A DNA stretch of 35,710 bases from a bacterium. Its GTDB lineage: Bacteria > Planctomycetota > Planctomycetia > Pirellulales > UBA1268. Both the position numbers and the translations under genes were made by a program. Under the pieces are notes generated by a model. That model ran no database searches, was not told the DNA's origin, and saw nothing but the letters and a program-made list of their open reading frames with translations. Location of the stretch: positions 1 through 35,710 of the forward strand of contig JAPOJV010000017.1 in assembly GCA_029978085.1 (NCBI GenBank). Reading direction: 5' to 3'. Shown piece by piece: positions 1-15,280 of this stretch. Position 1 is the stretch's first letter; each line of letters opens with the position of its first letter.

Positions 1-743
1 AGATGGAGATCCGGGAATTGCTGACGAAGTACGGCTTCCCCGGCGACGAGGTGCCGATCGTCCGCGGGGCCGGCAAGCCGGCCTACGACAGCCCGGCGGA
101 TCCGGCCAAGAACAAGTGCATCGCCGAGCTGCTCGACGCGGTCGACGCCTACATCCCCGAGCCGGTTCGCGAGCTCGACAAGCCGTTCCTGATGGCCATC
201 GAGGACGTGTTCTCGATCGAAGGCCGTGGCACGGTGGCCACGGGTCGTATCGAGCGTGGCATGGTGAAGGTGGGCGACGAAGTCGAGATCATCGGCCTCA
301 AGGACAAGGCCGAGAAGACGACGGTCACCGGCGTCGAGATGTTCAAGAAGGTGCTCGACAGCGGACAGGCCGGCGACAACGTCGGCTGCCTGCTCCGCGG
401 CGTGGCCCGCGACGGCATCGAGCGGGGTCAGGTGCTCGCCAAGCCGGGGTCGATCAAGCCCCACAAGAAGTTCGAGTGCGAGGTCTACGTGCTGTCGAAG
501 GAGGAGGGTGGCCGTCACACGCCGTTCTTCGCCGGCTACCGCCCGCAGTTCTACTTCCGCACGACCGACGTGACCGGCTCGACCAAGCTGCTCGGCGGCG
601 TCGAGATGTGCTCGCCGGGCGACAACGTGAAGATGGAGGTCGAGCTGATGGTGCCGATCGCCATGGACGACGGTGTTCGCTTCGCCATTCGCGAAGGCGG
701 CAAGACCGTCGGCTCGGGTGTCGTGACCAAGATCCTCGACTGA
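1..743 (+). CDS. tuf: Elongation factor Tu (3' part, truncated by window edge)
   Basis: Delivers aminoacyl-tRNA to the ribosome as a GTP complex. Only about the last 247 residues are present. The frame is open to base 1, so the G domain with its P-loop lies outside the window. The visible part covers the end of the G domain and beta-barrel domains 2 and 3, with textbook motifs such as IEDVFSI-GRGTV-TGRIERG, VEMFKK, KPHKKFE and [24 protein letters not shown]. The C-terminus ends normally. Its position directly before tRNA-Trp, secE and nusG is the usual bacterial order. The first ATG in the window (base 3) is internal and is not the start. Identification is certain. Confidence 0.98.
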
Positions 744-748
744 ATATG

Positions 749-768
749 TCCGGGGTTCCAGCCCCGGA
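749..768 (+). terminator. Short hairpin just after tuf
   Basis: A 7-bp stem (TCCGGGG/CCCCGGA) with a 6-nt loop begins 5 bases after the tuf stop codon. No T-run follows, so it may be an mRNA 3'-end structure or part of a pair with the stronger hairpin at 821-851 rather than an intrinsic terminator. Confidence 0.35.
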
Positions 769-820
769 GGAATGGAGAAATGAGTCCGGGGGCCCGGCCT
801 CGGACGGTAGGTAAAAACAA

Positions 821-851
821 GCCGGGCTTCGAGGTCGCCTCGAAGCCCGGC
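821..851 (+). terminator. Strong perfect hairpin between tuf and tRNA-Trp
   Basis: A perfect 14-bp inverted repeat (GCCGGGCTTCGAGG and its complement) with a 3-nt TCG loop. An A-rich stretch precedes it and it ends 6 bases before the tRNA. There is no T-run on the + strand. It could end the tuf transcript, or act as a processing site that separates tuf mRNA from the tRNA/secE transcript. The stem is seen directly; its role is inferred. Confidence 0.5.
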
Positions 852-857
852 GAACAC

Positions 858-930
858 AGGGGCGTAGCTCAACTGGCAGAGCGCTGGTCTCCAAAACCAG
901 AGGTTGCGAGTTCGATCCCCGCCGCCCCTG
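858..930 (+). tRNA. trnW: tRNA-Trp (anticodon CCA)
   Basis: A complete 73-nt cloverleaf: 7-bp acceptor stem AGGGGCG/CGCCCCT, 4-bp D stem GCTC/GAGC, 5-bp anticodon stem CTGGT/ACCAG around the loop CTCCAAA (anticodon CCA), 5-nt variable loop, T loop TTCGATC and discriminator G. The 3' CCA is not encoded. The T stem GCGAG/CCCGC contains an A-C mismatch (52-62). A tRNA-Trp between tuf and secE is the widespread bacterial arrangement. Confidence 0.96.
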
Positions 931-1000
931 CACGCAGTTGCCGCGGCGCGTCACGAGGCGCGCCGTGGCCCCGCGGGCGGGCAGTCCGGCGACGGAGCGC

Positions 1001-1516
1001 ATGATGGCAAGCACACAAGAGAATCACGTCCGCGGCGGCAGTGTCTGGGGAGAGCTCCTCAGCGCCTCGGTCTACAAGCCCACGCAGGGGCGGCTGGCGC
1101 GTCAGCTGACGTTCGCCGCCCTGGCCTTGATCATCGGGATCGGTGTATGGCGACTCGCCCAACTGCTGCCGCTCTGGTTCGCGGGCACCGCTGCGCTCCC
1201 GGCCGGCGATCTCCCGGCCGATGCGGCGTCGGGCCTCTCGGCGTTCGGCGACATCGGGGTGGTGCGGTTTTTGGTGCCGGGCCTGTTGCTCGCGGCGGGG
1301 CTCTGGTTCTGCTACCGGCTGGTCAATGTCCCGCGGTTTGCCGACTTCCTGATCTCGGTCGAGGCGGAAATGGCGAAGGTGTCGTGGCCGAGCGGGGGCG
1401 AGGTGGCCCGCAGCTCTGCCGTGATTATCTTTTTGATCTTCGCGTTGGCGGCGATTCTGGCTGGGTACGATCTCTTTTGGTGGTTCATCCTGCGGTACGT
1501 GCTCCAGATCACCTGA
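1001..1516 (+). CDS. secE: Preprotein translocase subunit SecE, N-terminally extended
   Basis: SecE clamps SecY in the Sec translocon of the inner membrane. The diagnostic C-terminal part is present: the amphipathic segment EMAKVSWPSGGEVARSS followed by one membrane helix (about residues 145-165) and an aromatic end. Two additional hydrophobic segments (about 30-50 and 85-105) lie in an N-terminal extension, so the 171-residue protein is much longer than the roughly 60-residue single-span SecE. The start is ATG 1001 or the adjacent ATG 1004; a GGAG at 994-997 sits slightly better before 1004. The ORF track start at 938 overlaps the end of the tRNA leader and is unlikely. It is followed 16 bases later by nusG, the standard pair. 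Confidence 0.93.
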   Translation: MMASTQENHVRGGSVWGELLSASVYKPTQGRLARQLTFAALALIIGIGVWRLAQLLPLWFAGTAALPAGDLPADAASGLSAFGDIGVVRFLVPGLLLAAGLWFCYRLVNVPRFADFLISVEAEMAKVSWPSGGEVARSSAVIIFLIFALAAILAGYDLFWWFILRYVLQIT

Positions 1517-1532
1517 CGACCGGAATAGCGAT

Positions 1533-2300
1533 ATGACTGCAACATTCGACGATTCGATGGGCGGTGAGCAGGCGGCTGCCGAAGCTACCGACCTGCCGCG
1601 GTCGCACTCGGCTGACGGAGCCCCCGCCGATGCTGTGCCGCCGGTGGTGAACGACGCCGAGGACGACGACGACGGCACTCCCGCCGAGCTCGAGGATCCG
1701 TTCGCCGGTGACGAAAACGCCACGCCTGTCGAGGTCGCTGCCGAAGCTGCGGCCGCGGCTGCGGTGGGTGACAAGCAGTGGTACATCCTCAAGGTGCAGA
1801 GCAACCGGGAGGATTCGATCCGCGAGACCCTCCTCCGCCGGATTTCGCTCCAGGGCCTCGACCGGTTCTTCGGCGACGTCGTCGTGCCGAAGGAGCAGGT
1901 GACGGAGTTCAAAGGGGGCAAAAAACGCGTCGTTTCTCGCAAGCTCTATCCGGGATACATCCTGGTGAACATGATCTTGAACGACGAGACCTGGTACCTC
2001 GTGCGGGAGACCGGCGGCATCGGTGACTTCACCGGCTCCGCCGGCCGGCCGAGCCCCATGCTCCCGCAGGACGTGGCCAAGCTGCTCAACAAGGCCGAGG
2101 AGAAGACCGCCGAGACTCCGCGGCTCAAGATCAACTTCAAGAAGGGTGACCGCGTGAAGATCAACGAGGGCACCTTCGAGAACTTCGAGGGCGAAGTCGA
2201 GCAGATCGACGAGGCCAACGGCCGCGTGACGGTGATGCTCAGCATCTTCGGCCGCTCGACCCCGGTGGATATCGAATACTGGCAGATCGAATCGGTCTGA
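1533..2300 (+). CDS. nusG: Transcription termination/antitermination factor NusG with acidic N-terminal extension
   Basis: NusG binds the RNA polymerase clamp and links it to Rho or the ribosome. The NGN domain starts near residue 80 ([13 protein letters not shown], later [10 protein letters not shown]). The C-terminal KOW domain ([19 protein letters not shown]) ends the 255-residue protein. Typical bacterial NusG is about 180 residues. The extra 75-80 N-terminal residues are Ala/Asp/Glu-rich ([17 protein letters not shown]), probably disordered and strongly acidic. There is no good SD before ATG 1533, but the spacing after secE and the continuous GC-rich coding pattern support this start. 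An internal start nearer the NGN domain cannot be fully excluded. Confidence 0.95.
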
Positions 2301-2340
2301 AACCGACACCCAGCGACGCACAGACAAGAGGATTGCTGCA

Positions 2341-2766
2341 ATGGCGAAACAGATGGTTGGACAGGCGAAATTCCAGGTGCCCGGTGGTCAGGCCACTCCG
2401 GCGCCGCCGGTGGGCACCTCGCTCGGCCGGTTTGGCATCAACCTCGGCCAGTTCGTCCAGCAGTTCAACGATCGCACCCGTGAGGCGGCCGGCATGCCGA
2501 TCCCGGTGGTGGTCACCGTCTACAACGATCGCTCGTTCGACTTCATCACGAAGAGCCCGCCGGCCGCGGCCCTTTTGAAAAAGGCTGCCGGTCTGGCCAA
2601 GGGGTCGGGCGTGCCGAACCGCGACAAGGTCGGCAAGGTCACCAAGGCGCAGGTCGATGAGATCGTGCGGCTCAAGGGGGCCGACCTCAACGCCCGTGAC
2701 GGCGAGCATGCCCGCCGCATGGTCGAAGGCACTGCCCGCAGCATGGGCATCACCGTGGAGGGCTGA
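2341..2766 (+). CDS. rplK: 50S ribosomal protein L11
   Basis: Component of the GTPase-associated centre of the large subunit, binding 23S rRNA. The 141 residues match the family length. The N-terminal domain shows the Pro-rich [15 protein letters not shown] and [10 protein letters not shown] stretches, and the C-terminal RNA-binding domain carries [14 protein letters not shown] and a final [15 protein letters not shown] about 8 bases before ATG 2341 is a good ribosome-binding site. It lies 40 bases after nusG and 51 before rplA, in the standard L11-L1 order. Confidence 0.98.
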
Positions 2767-2817
2767 GCCCTCCGATCTCCGTTCACGTTCCATTCATTCC
2801 GCGAAAGACCCTGACTC

Positions 2818-3504
2818 ATGACCGTCGCCAGCACCAAGCGCATGCGGGCCATGCTCGCCGTGAAGCCGCAGACCGAGGCCCCGCTGTCTCTTGCCGAGGC
2901 CATTGAGGCCCTGAAGAAGTTTCCGCCGACCAAGTTCGACCAGACGGTCGAGATCCACATGCGTCTGGGTATCGACCCGAAGCAGGCGGATCAGATCATC
3001 CGCGGCTCGATCGTGCTGCCTCACGGCATCGGCAAGTCCAAGCGGGTGGTCGTGTTCGCCAAGGGCAACCTGGCCGACGACGCGAAGGCGGCTGGTGCCG
3101 AAGAGGTCGGTGCCGACGATCTCGCCAAGAAAATCAAGGAGGGCTGGACCGACTTCGACGTCTGTATCGCCGCGCCCGACATGATGGGCCTCGTGGGCCC
3201 GCTCGGCAAAGTGCTCGGCCCCCGTGGCCTGATGCCCAGCCCGCGTGCCGGAACGGTCACGGCCGACATCAAGAAGACGGTGAGCGAGTACAAGGCCGGC
3301 AAGGTCGAGTTTCGCAACGACCCCACGGGCATCGTGCACGCCGTAGTCGGCAAGTTCAGCTTCGATTCGGGGAAGCTCGCCGACAACGTCCGGGCATTCA
3401 TCGATCACATCCTGTCCCTGCAGCCGTCGAGCGTGCGTGGCCAGTACGTGAAGAGCATCTCGATTTGCGGCACGATGACCCCCGGCATCATGGTCGCCGC
3501 CTGA
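2818..3504 (+). CDS. rplA: 50S ribosomal protein L1
   Basis: Builds the L1 stalk near the E site; in many bacteria it also represses its own operon by binding the mRNA. The 228-residue length and motifs are typical: KRMRAM near the N-terminus, [54 protein letters not shown] and a C-terminal [17 protein letters not shown]. The sequence before ATG 2818 has no obvious SD, which is common for this cluster. Downstream rplJ follows after 35 bases. Confidence 0.98.
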
Positions 3505-3539
3505 CACCTCCACGAATCTCACGCTGAAAGTTCCCACTC

Positions 3540-4091
3540 ATGAGCAAGCTCATCAAAAACATGCTGGTCGACGACCTCAAGGGCCGCCTGCAGGGCGTCG
3601 GTGAGGTGATCGTCGTGAGCCTTGGCAGGCTCGATGCCCAAAAGACCACGCAGCTCCGCCAGGCATTGCGGAAGAAGCGGATCAGTCTGCAGCTCGTCAA
3701 GAACAGCCTGGCCCGCCGCGCCATGCTCGGCACGCCACTCGAGCCCGCGCTCGAGGAGGCCGAAGGCATGCTGGCGATCGCCTGGGGCGGCGACGATGTC
3801 GTCGATCTTGCGAAGGAGCTCGACCGCCTCTCGGGCGTGAAGGACTTTGATGGCTTCGAGTGTCGCGGCGGCGCCCTTGACGGCGCCCGTCTCGATGCCG
3901 GCGACGTCAAAAAGGTCGCCAAGTGGCCCACGCGGGTCGAGCAGCTGTCGATCCTCTCCGGACAGATTTCGTCGCTGGCGGGCACACTCGCCGGGCAGAT
4001 TGTTTCTGCCGGTGGCACCCTGGCTGGCCAGATTTCGCAGCGGGCCGACGACCTGGAAAAGGCCGGCGGCGAGGCGGATTCGGCCGCCTGA
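3540..4091 (+). CDS. rplJ: 50S ribosomal protein L10
   Basis: Stalk base protein that anchors L7/L12 dimers to 23S rRNA. The N-terminal rRNA-binding domain is clear (MSKLIKNMLVDDLK, VVSLGRLDAQKTTQLRQALRKK, VKNSLARRAML). At 183 residues it is slightly longer than usual. The C-terminal helix that recruits L12 is preceded by an unusual internal repeat: SGQISSLAGTLAGQI, then a second GGTLAGQIS unit. A 185-base gap containing an intrinsic-terminator-like hairpin separates it from rplL. Confidence 0.96.
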   Translation: MSKLIKNMLVDDLKGRLQGVGEVIVVSLGRLDAQKTTQLRQALRKKRISLQLVKNSLARRAMLGTPLEPALEEAEGMLAIAWGGDDVVDLAKELDRLSGVKDFDGFECRGGALDGARLDAGDVKKVAKWPTRVEQLSILSGQISSLAGTLAGQIVSAGGTLAGQISQRADDLEKAGGEADSAA

Positions 4092-4123
4092 GTGGCTGGC
4101 GCCCGGAATTTTCCGGGGCGGGC

Positions 4124-4151
4124 TTCACTCCGACGAATCACATGGTATGAA
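4124..4151 (+). promoter_or_regulatory. Possible sigma70-like promoter for rplL
   Basis: TTCACT (4/6 to consensus -35), a 16-base spacer and TATGAA (4/6 to -10) lie upstream of the hairpin at 4223-4254. This could give rplL its own transcript with an attenuated leader. The match is weak and comes from inspection only. Confidence 0.25.
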
Positions 4152-4222
4152 GGAAGGCTCGCCGCAGGGCGGGCCGATACGGTCCCCAGGCACTCCGCAA
4201 CCACAAACCACACCACTTTACC

Positions 4223-4254
4223 GCTGTCGCCGTCATCCGGCGACAGCATTTTTT
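4223..4254 (+). terminator. Intrinsic terminator/attenuator between rplJ and rplL
   Basis: A perfect 10-bp stem, GCTGTCGCCG/CGGCGACAGC, with a 5-nt loop is followed by A and six T residues. This is the clearest rho-independent terminator shape in the window. It ends 22 bases before the rplL ATG, so it would trim read-through from rplKAJ or attenuate a transcript started in the gap. Confidence 0.75.
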
Positions 4255-4276
4255 CGAAGGGAAAGGACCTCGAGCG

Positions 4277-4702
4277 ATGGCAACGGCTGAAGCAACCCGT
4301 GAATTCTCCAACGAGACCAAGGAACTCGGCGACAAGATCGTCGGTCTGACGCTCAAGGCTGCGAAGGAGCTGTCCGACTACCTCGACGAAGTCCACGGCA
4401 TCAAGCCCGCCGCTGGCGGCGCCGTGATGATGGCTGCTCCCGCAGCCGGCGGCGGTGCCGCTGGTGGCGGTGGCGAAGCTGCCGCCGAGAAGACCGAGTT
4501 CGACGTGATCCTCGAGAACTTCGGCGACAACAAGATCGGCGTCATCAAGGTGGTCCGCGCTGCGACCGGCCTTGGCCTGAAGGAGGCCAAGGACATGGTC
4601 GAGGCCTGCCCTGCCAAGGTGAAGGAAGGCATCTCGAAGGCCGACGCCGAGAAGCTCAAGAAGGAGCTCGAGGAAGCCAAGGCGAAGGTGTCGATCAAGT
4701 AG
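4277..4702 (+). CDS. rplL: 50S ribosomal protein L7/L12
   Basis: Multi-copy stalk protein that recruits translation GTPases. The N-terminal dimerisation region is followed by an Ala/Gly-rich hinge (residues about 48-70, [18 protein letters not shown]). The conserved C-terminal domain is present ([38 protein letters not shown], ending [10 protein letters not shown]). At 141 residues it is somewhat longer than the usual 120-130, mostly at the N-terminus. A purine-rich AAGGGAAAGGA precedes ATG 4277. Separated from rplJ by a terminator-like hairpin, it may be expressed apart from rplJ, which would fit its higher copy number on ribosomes. Confidence 0.97.
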
Positions 4703-4731
4703 CCCGCCTCGCTGCCGCGTCCGTTCAATCC

Positions 4732-4773
4732 CCCGCCTTCCCGCCCGTTTGGGCGGGAGGCTGGCGGGTTTGT
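4732..4773 (+). terminator. Two-part GC-rich hairpin after rplL
   Basis: An inner stem CCCGCCC/GGGCGGG (4-nt GTTT loop), extended by a T-A and a T-G pair, sits inside an outer CCCGCC/GGCGGG stem, followed by TTTGTCT. It lies in the 316-base rplL-rpoB gap and is probably a terminator or partial terminator for the ribosomal protein transcript. The T-run is weak. Confidence 0.5.
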
Positions 4774-4783
4774 CTGGAAACGG

Positions 4784-4789
4784 TATAGT
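4784..4789 (+). promoter_or_regulatory. Possible -10 element upstream of rpoB
   Basis: TATAGT is an AT-rich hexamer in the otherwise GC-rich 4703-5018 gap. No convincing -35 lies 16-18 bases upstream. The rest of the gap (4790-5018) would then be a leader of about 220 bases; I recognise no further structure in it. Confidence 0.25.
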
Positions 4790-5018
4790 ATTTGCGGTTC
4801 GCTTGCCTGCCCTGTCTCTCTGTTCCCGGTTTCCCAGCCCTCCCTGTTCTTCCCAGGTCGTGCCGCCTGCGGTCGAACGTGCTTGTCGTTTGTTCGGGTT
4901 CGTTTCCTGTCGTGTCGACTGAACGGTCGTCAGTCGTCGGCGCGAAGAGCGAGCCACGCCGCCAGTCTCGCGCCAGCAGTCGCCCCTGCCATCGCAACGC
5001 TTTAGGAGCCTTTTCTAC

Positions 5019-8777
<3,759 letters not shown>

Positions 8778-8780
8778 CCC

Positions 8781-13121
<4,341 letters not shown>

Positions 13122-13160
13122 GCCGCTGGCCGGCTCCGGCGTTGACGCCCGGAGGTGCGT

Positions 13161-14084
13161 ATGCCGCAGCGGACGACCAGTTGGCTGGTGACGGAGGGGC
13201 CGACCGTTCCCGTCGGCCAGGTCGCCATGCGAACGCTCCGCGGACGGCTCCGCGCCGTCTGGGCCGAGGCCCAGGCAGCGGCCGAAGGCACGGCACCGGA
13301 GCACGTGCATCGGCTGCGTGTCGCAACTCGCCGTACGCTGGCGGCGTTCGACGTGTTTCGCGACGTGCTGCCGGCGAAGCGGTCCGCCTGGTTTCGCAAG
13401 CGGCTCCGAATCCTGCGGCGGGTTGCCGGCGACGCCCGCGACCTCGACGTGCTCACGGGGCGTCTGCGGCAGGATGACGAACGACCCGCACCTGCCCGCA
13501 CCGCCCGGGCCAGGCTCGTCGCGATGCTCGCGAAGCAACGCACCGTCTCCAGAGCGCCGATCCGCGAACTCTACGAGCGGCTGGCCGATGCCGACTGGTC
13601 GGCCCGGGTCGATGACCTCATGGAGCGGGTCGCTGACCGCGGCCGCGATGTCACGTTCGGCGTCTACGCCCGCCAGCGGTTCGGCCCACTCGTCGAACGC
13701 TTCTTCGCCGTTGCCGATCGCCGGCTGCGGGATGCAGACGAGATCCATCAGCTGCGGATCGAGGCGAAGAAGCTTCGGTATGCCGTCGAGATCTTTGCCG
13801 GTGTCTTTCCCGCGGCCACGCTGGCCCGTTGCCAGGAAGCCCTCGAGCGACTGCAGCAGACACTCGGCGACTTTACCGACCATGCAGCGGCTGCCGACCG
13901 ATTTCGCCGCTGGTCGCGTGACGAGAGCATGCGGGCAGACCGTGATGCGCTCGCGGCGCTCCGCCGCCGCGAGGATGCCCTGGCCGACGACGCCCGCAAG
14001 GTCTTCGCCACGTGGTGGAGCCGGTCGCGGCGGCGGGCGCTTAAGCGCACCTTCAACCGGTCGCTCCGTCGAGAGTCGGCATGA
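13161..14084 (+). CDS. CHAD domain protein (putative polyphosphate-binding)
   Basis: CHAD domains are alpha-helical bundles with conserved histidines and many basic residues; known members bind inorganic polyphosphate. The 307 residues show the two-fold pattern of the family: EHVHRLRVATRRTLAAFDVF near the N-terminus and DEIHQLRIEAKKLRYAVEIF in the second half. The protein is very rich in Arg, and no membrane segment or CYTH domain is visible. ATG 13161 is preferred over the track's GTG 13155 because GGAGG sits 5 bases before it. It begins 39 bases after rpoC, so it may share the RNA polymerase transcript. Its last codons overlap the FGE start (ATGA). Confidence 0.85.
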   Translation: MPQRTTSWLVTEGPTVPVGQVAMRTLRGRLRAVWAEAQAAAEGTAPEHVHRLRVATRRTLAAFDVFRDVLPAKRSAWFRKRLRILRRVAGDARDLDVLTGRLRQDDERPAPARTARARLVAMLAKQRTVSRAPIRELYERLADADWSARVDDLMERVADRGRDVTFGVYARQRFGPLVERFFAVADRRLRDADEIHQLRIEAKKLRYAVEIFAGVFPAATLARCQEALERLQQTLGDFTDHAAAADRFRRWSRDESMRADRDALAALRRREDALADDARKVFATWWSRSRRRALKRTFNRSLRRESA

Positions 14085-15280
14085 CGTCGCGACACGCTTC
14101 CGCGCGGGCTGGGCAGCAACCGCCGTCGCGCGGCCCGTCGGCGGCCATCGTCGTGACAGTCGGACTCGGCCTGGCCGCTGCCATCTGGGGCCTCGGCCGC
14201 TGGGCCACGTCCACGGGCAGCCAGGCAAGCCCCGCGAACGGCGCGGCCGATCGCCAGGCCGCCGGCTTCGAGCCGACCGTGCCGGCAGGGACTGCACCGG
14301 GGCCGGCCCCAGCGGGCATGGTGTGGGTTCCCGGCGGTGAGTTCTCGATGGGCTGTGCCGATCCACGGGGCATGCCGTTCGGCGGCGACGACCCGATGGC
14401 CGACGCCCGTCCGATCCATCGCGTGCGCATCACCGGCTTGTGGATGGATGCCACCGAGGTGACGAACGCCCAGTTCGCCGCCTTCGTGAAGGCGACGAAC
14501 TACGTCACCGTCGCCGAGCGAACACCGCGGGCGGAGGACTTCCCGGGCGCACCGGCCGAGAATCTCGTGGCGGGGTCGATCGTCTTCGCGCCGCCCGCCG
14601 GCGACGTGCCGCTGCGTGACGCCACCGGCGCCGCCCATCTCCGCTGGTGGGCCTACGTGCCGGCCGCCTCGTGGCGGCACCCATTCGGCCCGGAGAGCGA
14701 CATCACCGGCCACGACGACGATCCCGTCGTGCACATCGCCTTCGAGGATGCCGAGGCCTACGCTGCCTGGGCAGGCAAGCGGCTCCCCACGGAGGCCGAA
14801 TGGGAATTCGCGGCCCGCGGCGGCCTCACTGGCGCGGCCTACCCCTGGGGCACGGAATTCAAGCCCGGCGGCCGCTGGATGGCCAACACGTGGCAGGGCC
14901 GCTTTCCGCGGGAGAATACGGCCGCGGACGGCTTCCCCGGCATCGCTCCGGTGGGTCGCTATCCGGCCAATGCCTACGGCCTGCACGACATGTCGGGCAA
15001 CGTCTGGGAGTGGTGCAGCGACTGGTATCGCCCCGACACCTACACCCGCGACGCCGGCCCCGACCTCCGCGCGGTCGTCACGAACCCGCGCGGCCCTGCC
15101 GACAGTTTCGATCCCCAGGAGCCGGGGCAGCCGAAGCGGGTGCAGCGCGGCGGCTCGTTCCTGTGCAGCGACCAATACTGCTCACGCTACATCGTGGGCA
15201 CTCGCGGCAAGGGCGAGGTCTCGAGCGGCACCAACCACATCGGCTTCCGGTGCGTGAAGGAACCAGACACGGTGCGGTGA
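14081..15280 (+). CDS. Formylglycine-generating enzyme (sulfatase-modifying factor), membrane-anchored or exported
   Basis: FGE oxidises a cysteine in sulfatases to the catalytic formylglycine. A hydrophobic segment (about 21-42) suggests an anchor or uncleaved export signal. The FGE-sulfatase domain runs from about residue 78 (MVWVPGGEFSMG) through WMDATEVTNAQFAAFV, GKRLPTEAEWEFAARGG, YPWG and GNVWEWCSDWY to GFRC. The two copper-binding catalytic cysteines of true FGEs are present as LCSDQYC (C362, C367), followed by SRY and NHIGFRC. This argues for an active enzyme rather than a structural SUMF1-like domain. It overlaps the CHAD gene by 4 bases. No sulfatase gene lies in this window. Planctomycetes usually encode many sulfatases. 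Confidence 0.9.
   Translation: MTSRHASARAGQQPPSRGPSAAIVVTVGLGLAAAIWGLGRWATSTGSQASPANGAADRQAAGFEPTVPAGTAPGPAPAGMVWVPGGEFSMGCADPRGMPFGGDDPMADARPIHRVRITGLWMDATEVTNAQFAAFVKATNYVTVAERTPRAEDFPGAPAENLVAGSIVFAPPAGDVPLRDATGAAHLRWWAYVPAASWRHPFGPESDITGHDDDPVVHIAFEDAEAYAAWAGKRLPTEAEWEFAARGGLTGAAYPWGTEFKPGGRWMANTWQGRFPRENTAADGFPGIAPVGRYPANAYGLHDMSGNVWEWCSDWYRPDTYTRDAGPDLRAVVTNPRGPADSFDPQEPGQPKRVQRGGSFLCSDQYCSRYIVGTRGKGEVSSGTNHIGFRCVKEPDTVR

Follow-up and report, generated by a model that had tools for sequence, protein, structure and literature searches.

L12 is the main multi-copy protein of the ribosome, with several copies needed per ribosome. In Escherichia coli, the region between rplL and rpoB contains an attenuator and an RNase III site. 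The surrounding rplKAJL-rpoBC cluster uses internal promoters (PMC12083536), and L12 excess is achieved largely through initiation on the rplJL message that is coupled and more efficient (PMC10666635). Bacillus subtilis controls rplJL by attenuation, through an L10 leader which precedes rplJ and combines a kink-turn site for L10(L12)4 with competing structures (PMC4538822; reviewed in PMC10931766). For bacteria without this leader, the mechanism behind L12 excess is not settled. Promoters and operon control of planctomycetes have also been little mapped; our literature search found no transcription start-site map for this group.

Here, we analyzed a window of 35,710 nt, the whole stretch of DNA considered, from a planctomycete genome (G000 in our dataset) whose family is represented by 72 genomes in the dataset. 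Its rplA, rplJ, rplL, and rpoB genes are cluster neighbors, identified by Pfam (L1, L10, L12, RpoB). On the plus strand, the reading frames of rplJ (3540 to 4091; Ribosomal_L10) and rplL (4277 to 4702; Ribosomal_L12 and Ribosomal_L12_N) flank a gap of 185 nt (4092 to 4276) that ends at the rplL ATG at 4277. As in the E. coli cluster, internal promoters and structured RNA would let the genes be expressed apart; unlike in E. coli, the gap of ∼185 nt before rplL holds a leader hairpin and a conserved promoter resembling those of rRNA genes. Comparing sequences of relatives, we give a probability of roughly 60% to the reading that this gap is not mainly a place of transcription stop and instead provides a conserved rRNA-type promoter and a leader hairpin for a separate rplL expression unit. 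The comparison covered 64 distinct rplJ-rplL gaps from 12 genera of the same family, 101 to >300 nt in length, plus further planctomycete gaps; the homologous contigs are labeled Planctomycetota, Planctomycetaceae, or Pirellulales.

Read from the sequence, the C-terminal tail of L10 contains three repeats of ∼11 residues (SILSGQIS, SLAGTLAGQIV, and SAGGTLAGQIS), suggesting three sites for L12 dimers. Since the number of L12 sites in the L10 tail predicts the number of L12 copies (PMC6021402), six L12 per L10 are likely in this organism. Three other features of the window are worth recording. NusG (1533 to 2300) has an acidic, alanine-rich N-terminal extension of ∼80 residues, and the SecE reading frame (938 to 1516) is long, with a distinct N-terminal part of its own. 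In the interval between tuf and the tRNA-Trp gene, there is a 14-bp hairpin (821 to 851) with a T-run on the minus strand only, which therefore reads as a terminator opposing the direction of the operon.

The best-conserved part of the rplJ-rplL gap is a block of the form GGnCTTCAC-N14-TGGTA(T/A)GAC, followed by GG(C/T)TC, whose two core elements are separated by a 16-nt spacer regardless of gap length. This pattern was present in 56 of 63 readable family gaps (the 64 minus the truncated L032), while L163 and L164 keep the −10 element and fall outside the pattern count. On the plus strand of the window, the block comprises a −35 element, TTCACT (4124 to 4129), of which TTC is shared by 35/38 nonredundant sequences; an extended −10 element, TGG-TATGAA (4143 to 4151), with a nearly invariant GGTA; and GGCTC (4156 to 4160), a GC-rich discriminator that appears as GG(C/T)TC in most of the 38. 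Transcription of rplL is predicted to start near 4158. Upstream of the −35 element, an A/T tract lies within a 7-bp inverted repeat, CCCGGAA-TT-TTCCGGG (4102 to 4117, plus strand), as a possible UP-like element. A T tract is conserved 12 to 16 nt upstream of the −35 element (T at −14 to −12 in 25 to 30 of 38 sequences) and could be an UP element. We discarded the inverted repeat around it as a general feature, its signal among relatives being weak (mean z −0.56; P ≤ 0.05 in 7/28). Scanning whole genomes, we found the block in the rplL gap of 42 of the 72 family genomes, and every zero-mismatch match was located there. The idea that the block marks a regulon was likewise dropped: the 72 genomes gave 17 off-locus matches, a frequency no higher than that of the reversed control.

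A sequence-only reading of this DNA had proposed that rplL might have its own promoter, with a weak candidate at 4124 to 4151. The location was well chosen, coinciding with the conserved block; the attribute "weak" fits poorly with such strong conservation. By the σ70 consensus scan, the candidate (TTCACT-N16-TATGAA) was not recognized, its hexamers being near TTGACA and TATAAT yet imperfect: the −35 element has C for G, and the −10 element (TATGAC or TATGAA) is without the usual final T. We compared it to the regions upstream of 16S rRNA genes from 12 family genomes. All 12 carry a promoter of the form TTGAC-N16-TGn-TAnnnT (spacer N17 in one of them), as illustrated by TTGACC-N16-TGG-TATGAT in L173, and the −10 elements of these rRNA promoters are imperfect, too. 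The rplL block resembles these σ70, extended −10 promoters in its 16-nt spacer and in the TGn preceding the −10 element; it departs from them at one conserved base per hexamer, with TTCAC as −35 and a −10 ending in C or A rather than T. Two elements at constant spacing, a TGn motif, conservation, and likeness to the vegetative promoters of the group are the marks of a σ70 promoter of the rRNA type, and we consider a separate promoter for rplL strongly supported by comparison among relatives. As a side observation, the rRNA loci L168 to L181 share a strongly conserved leader further downstream of the 16S promoter, TTTGACAATTCGGCAGTTGATCTCTTT...TTTCGGCCGGCACGCGATCGTGACCGGCA, which may be a signal for rRNA processing or antitermination.

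Downstream of the block, the sequence-only reading had described a perfect 10-bp hairpin plus six T, 22 bases before rplL, and the sequence is exactly so. On the plus strand, the hairpin GCTGTCGCCG-TCATC-CGGCGACAGC (4223 to 4247) is followed by A4248, a T6 run (4249 to 4254) whose length varies among relatives, and 22 nt (4255 to 4276) up to the ATG, placing the hairpin end 29 nt from the start codon. With 10 bp and −19 kcal/mol, it has the stable GC-rich stem of an intrinsic terminator. The hairpin alone reached a z of −6.7 (0/60 shuffles as good), and the gap as a whole folded better than 200/200 shuffles (z −4.1). In a pattern scan of positions 1 to 15000, the segment from 4223 to 4254 was the strongest terminator-like site on the plus strand, in a region where such sites are not in excess (4 found versus 7.9 expected from shuffles). 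Partition-function folding of the predicted leader gave the hairpin a probability of 1.00 in the window genome; values vary among relatives (mean 0.70, a few near 0). Immediately 5′ of the hairpin lies a G-free, A/C-rich strip (4198 to 4222, plus strand; 0% G), and the corresponding strip averages 10.5% G in the family versus 28% across the whole gap. On the 3′ side, the Shine-Dalgarno region AGGGAAAGGA (4258 to 4267, plus strand) is identical in 34 to 39 of 39 family sequences at each position. This order of elements is reminiscent, by analogy only, of the phage T7 gene 10 leader, in which a hairpin, a U/A-rich stretch, and a strong Shine-Dalgarno sequence precede the start codon. We also considered that the hairpin insulates the Shine-Dalgarno sequence. 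Accessibility was no better than with shuffled or deleted hairpins (P = 0.95, partition-function folding), and since folding thus shows no freeing of the Shine-Dalgarno sequence, a simple insulator role is unsupported.

Conservation among relatives had been suggested as a check on the hairpin, and the hairpin passes it in the family: it is kept at a near-fixed place, and its stem covaries. Among 43 nonredundant family sequences, the best hairpin ends 24 to 32 nt before the rplL ATG in 91%, versus 27% after shuffling, with a mean z of −2.4 and P ≤ 0.05 in 31/43. The same test applied before rplJ, as a control, yielded a mean z of −0.5 and scattered positions. Stem bases differ among genera with pairing retained; in 15 sequences picked for a shared register, a choice that somewhat favors structure, 82% of cells pair and 7/10 pairs show double-sided changes. 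The covariation score of this same register-selected set was 0.467, versus 0.197 ± 0.031 after shuffling (0/500) and at most 0.169 when the stem was slid. An earlier alignment had some stems one base off; the shuffle and position test on the 43 sequences is independent of the register choice. Neither the loop nor the stem sequence itself is conserved in the family. Outside the family, hairpins were again overrepresented in 34 mostly Pirellulales loci (mean z −1.45; P ≤ 0.05 in 14/34), 22 of them ending 24 to 33 nt before the ATG.

There are exceptions: L018 has the promoter block and no hairpin, genus g6 (L031, L147, and L148) has the hairpin and no block, L008 has neither, and the gap is shortened in L010 and L012. 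Several of the genomes are metagenome assemblies that are not complete, so that an isolated exception may stem from assembly or binning. In some relatives from the order Pirellulales, exemplified by L050 and L055, the rplL leader is A/C-rich throughout, unstructured, and without any hairpin; the G-poor strip may therefore predate the hairpin.

On the other side of rplL, a second long hairpin (4726 to 4772, plus strand; −32.5 kcal/mol, z −4.7) is found 3′ of the gene. Its counterparts reach P ≤ 0.05 in 19/27 loci (mean z −3.3) and comprise 13 to 16 bp in many relatives, with arm sequences that change among species and often TTGG in the loop. Further downstream lies the conserved extended −10 element of an rpoB promoter, GG-TATAGT (4782 to 4789, plus strand), followed by ATTTGCG; GGTATA.T was present in 27/30 family loci examined. 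In relatives (loci L001 to L030), the 3′ arm of the hairpin abuts this conserved promoter, GGTATAGT(A/T)TTTGC, and the loop TTGG could be the −35 element of the rpoB promoter in most of them; the hairpin of the window genome lies further upstream. In three loci from Thermoguttaceae and another planctomycete (L104, L113, and L131), rplL is directly followed by a near-perfect terminator-like hairpin with a T-run, AAAAAAGCCCGC...GCGGGCTTTTTT, as though a transcription unit closed with this gene.

The sequence-only reading had labeled the hairpin before rplL an intrinsic terminator, a label that we would not keep: relatives conserve a stem at a set distance from the Shine-Dalgarno sequence, and the U-tract is variable, often short or offset from the stem. 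At least five T within the 8 nt after the stem were counted in 14/39 nonredundant family sequences; T is the first base after the stem in 11/39, and T peaks 4 to 6 nt past it. Moreover, because the promoter is located upstream of the hairpin, an efficient terminator would cut the rplL promoter's own transcripts, with just 22 nt left up to rplL. Weak termination at the U-run is possible, as are a leaky or regulated attenuator and a processing site, both of which had been named from the start. If the element were leaky, a fraction of the RNA polymerases arriving both from upstream and from the rplL promoter would stop at the U-run and thereby set the level of rplL and rpoBC, possibly in response to a regulator. 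The perfect stem with T6 in the window genome would suit such an attenuator, and in this genome as well as in L006 and L140, hairpin and U-run would pass for an intrinsic terminator. Family-wide, the bases that follow the stem are enriched in U (4.0/8 versus 1.6 expected), and in B. subtilis, too, a message encoding L12 carries a hairpin with a U-run in its leader and is under attenuation control (PMC4538822). However, most relatives have a weak U-tract with T mostly set apart from the stem, and the hairpins retained outside the family, in the 34 mostly Pirellulales loci, show no clear U enrichment. Different from B. subtilis, we found neither an L10 leader, the covariance model (RF00557) matching nowhere in the window and in 0/147 genomes of the order, nor a competing antiterminator structure, none being predicted in the window genome, where the modeled hairpin probability is 1.0. 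On balance, we regard attenuation as unlikely, if worth keeping in view.

The absence of L10 leader matches also bears on the proposal that a ribosomal protein or a complex such as L10-L12 binds the hairpin and represses rplL translation. Its position beside the ribosome-binding site would suit a repressor, and L10(L12)4 autoregulates rplJL in both E. coli and B. subtilis (PMC10931766; PMC4538822). Yet a protein that reads sequence would normally need conservation, which neither loop nor stem displays, and we think this proposal very improbable. A more speculative notion is that of a dedicated L12-dosage switch, in which the hairpin and U-run below a private rRNA-type promoter would sense free L12, L10-L12, or growth rate. 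We hold it to be improbable; if true, it would act on rplL rather than rplJ, and without an L10 leader of the kind that other bacteria use. As for the conserved 31-bp block, it might serve as a binding site for a regulator or as an RNA element instead of a promoter, given that its conservation is high for a promoter, its hexamers are imperfect, and it is essentially confined to the rplL locus. Against this stand the spacing and extended −10 element, which match the rRNA promoters, and the fact that the sequence itself is conserved, with no compensating changes in the block evident by eye. A role other than that of a promoter therefore seems improbable as well.

Returning to the promoter and leader hairpin as our preferred reading, a vegetative (σ70-type) promoter with the layout of an rRNA promoter would start the rplL transcript near 4158. 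The resulting leader of ∼120 nt would end in an A/C-rich unstructured strip, the hairpin, a short stretch rich in U and A, and a strong Shine-Dalgarno sequence. Since the promoter lies upstream of it, the hairpin would be part of the rplL leader; bordering the ribosome-binding site on its upstream side, it would be a leader element rather than an intrinsic terminator. Most likely, it would define or protect the 5′ end that the rplL message acquires when longer transcripts are processed, assist initiation, or do both, roles that we favor because rplL is flanked by a pair of hairpins. We infer from this arrangement that the hairpin before rplL stabilizes the message or aids initiation. The downstream hairpin and the rpoB promoter would complete the unit, so that rplL would be expressed above rplJ. 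With a promoter before the gene and a hairpin on each side, rplL thus looks like a unit of its own.

The purpose of this arrangement is probably to make L12 independently of its operon neighbors and in excess. An rRNA-type promoter before rplL, together with flanking hairpins, would give L12 excess in these planctomycetes a concrete layout, namely, L12 coregulated with rRNA and made from a discrete rplL message. In addition, the conserved block can serve as a promoter consensus in this group of planctomycetes.
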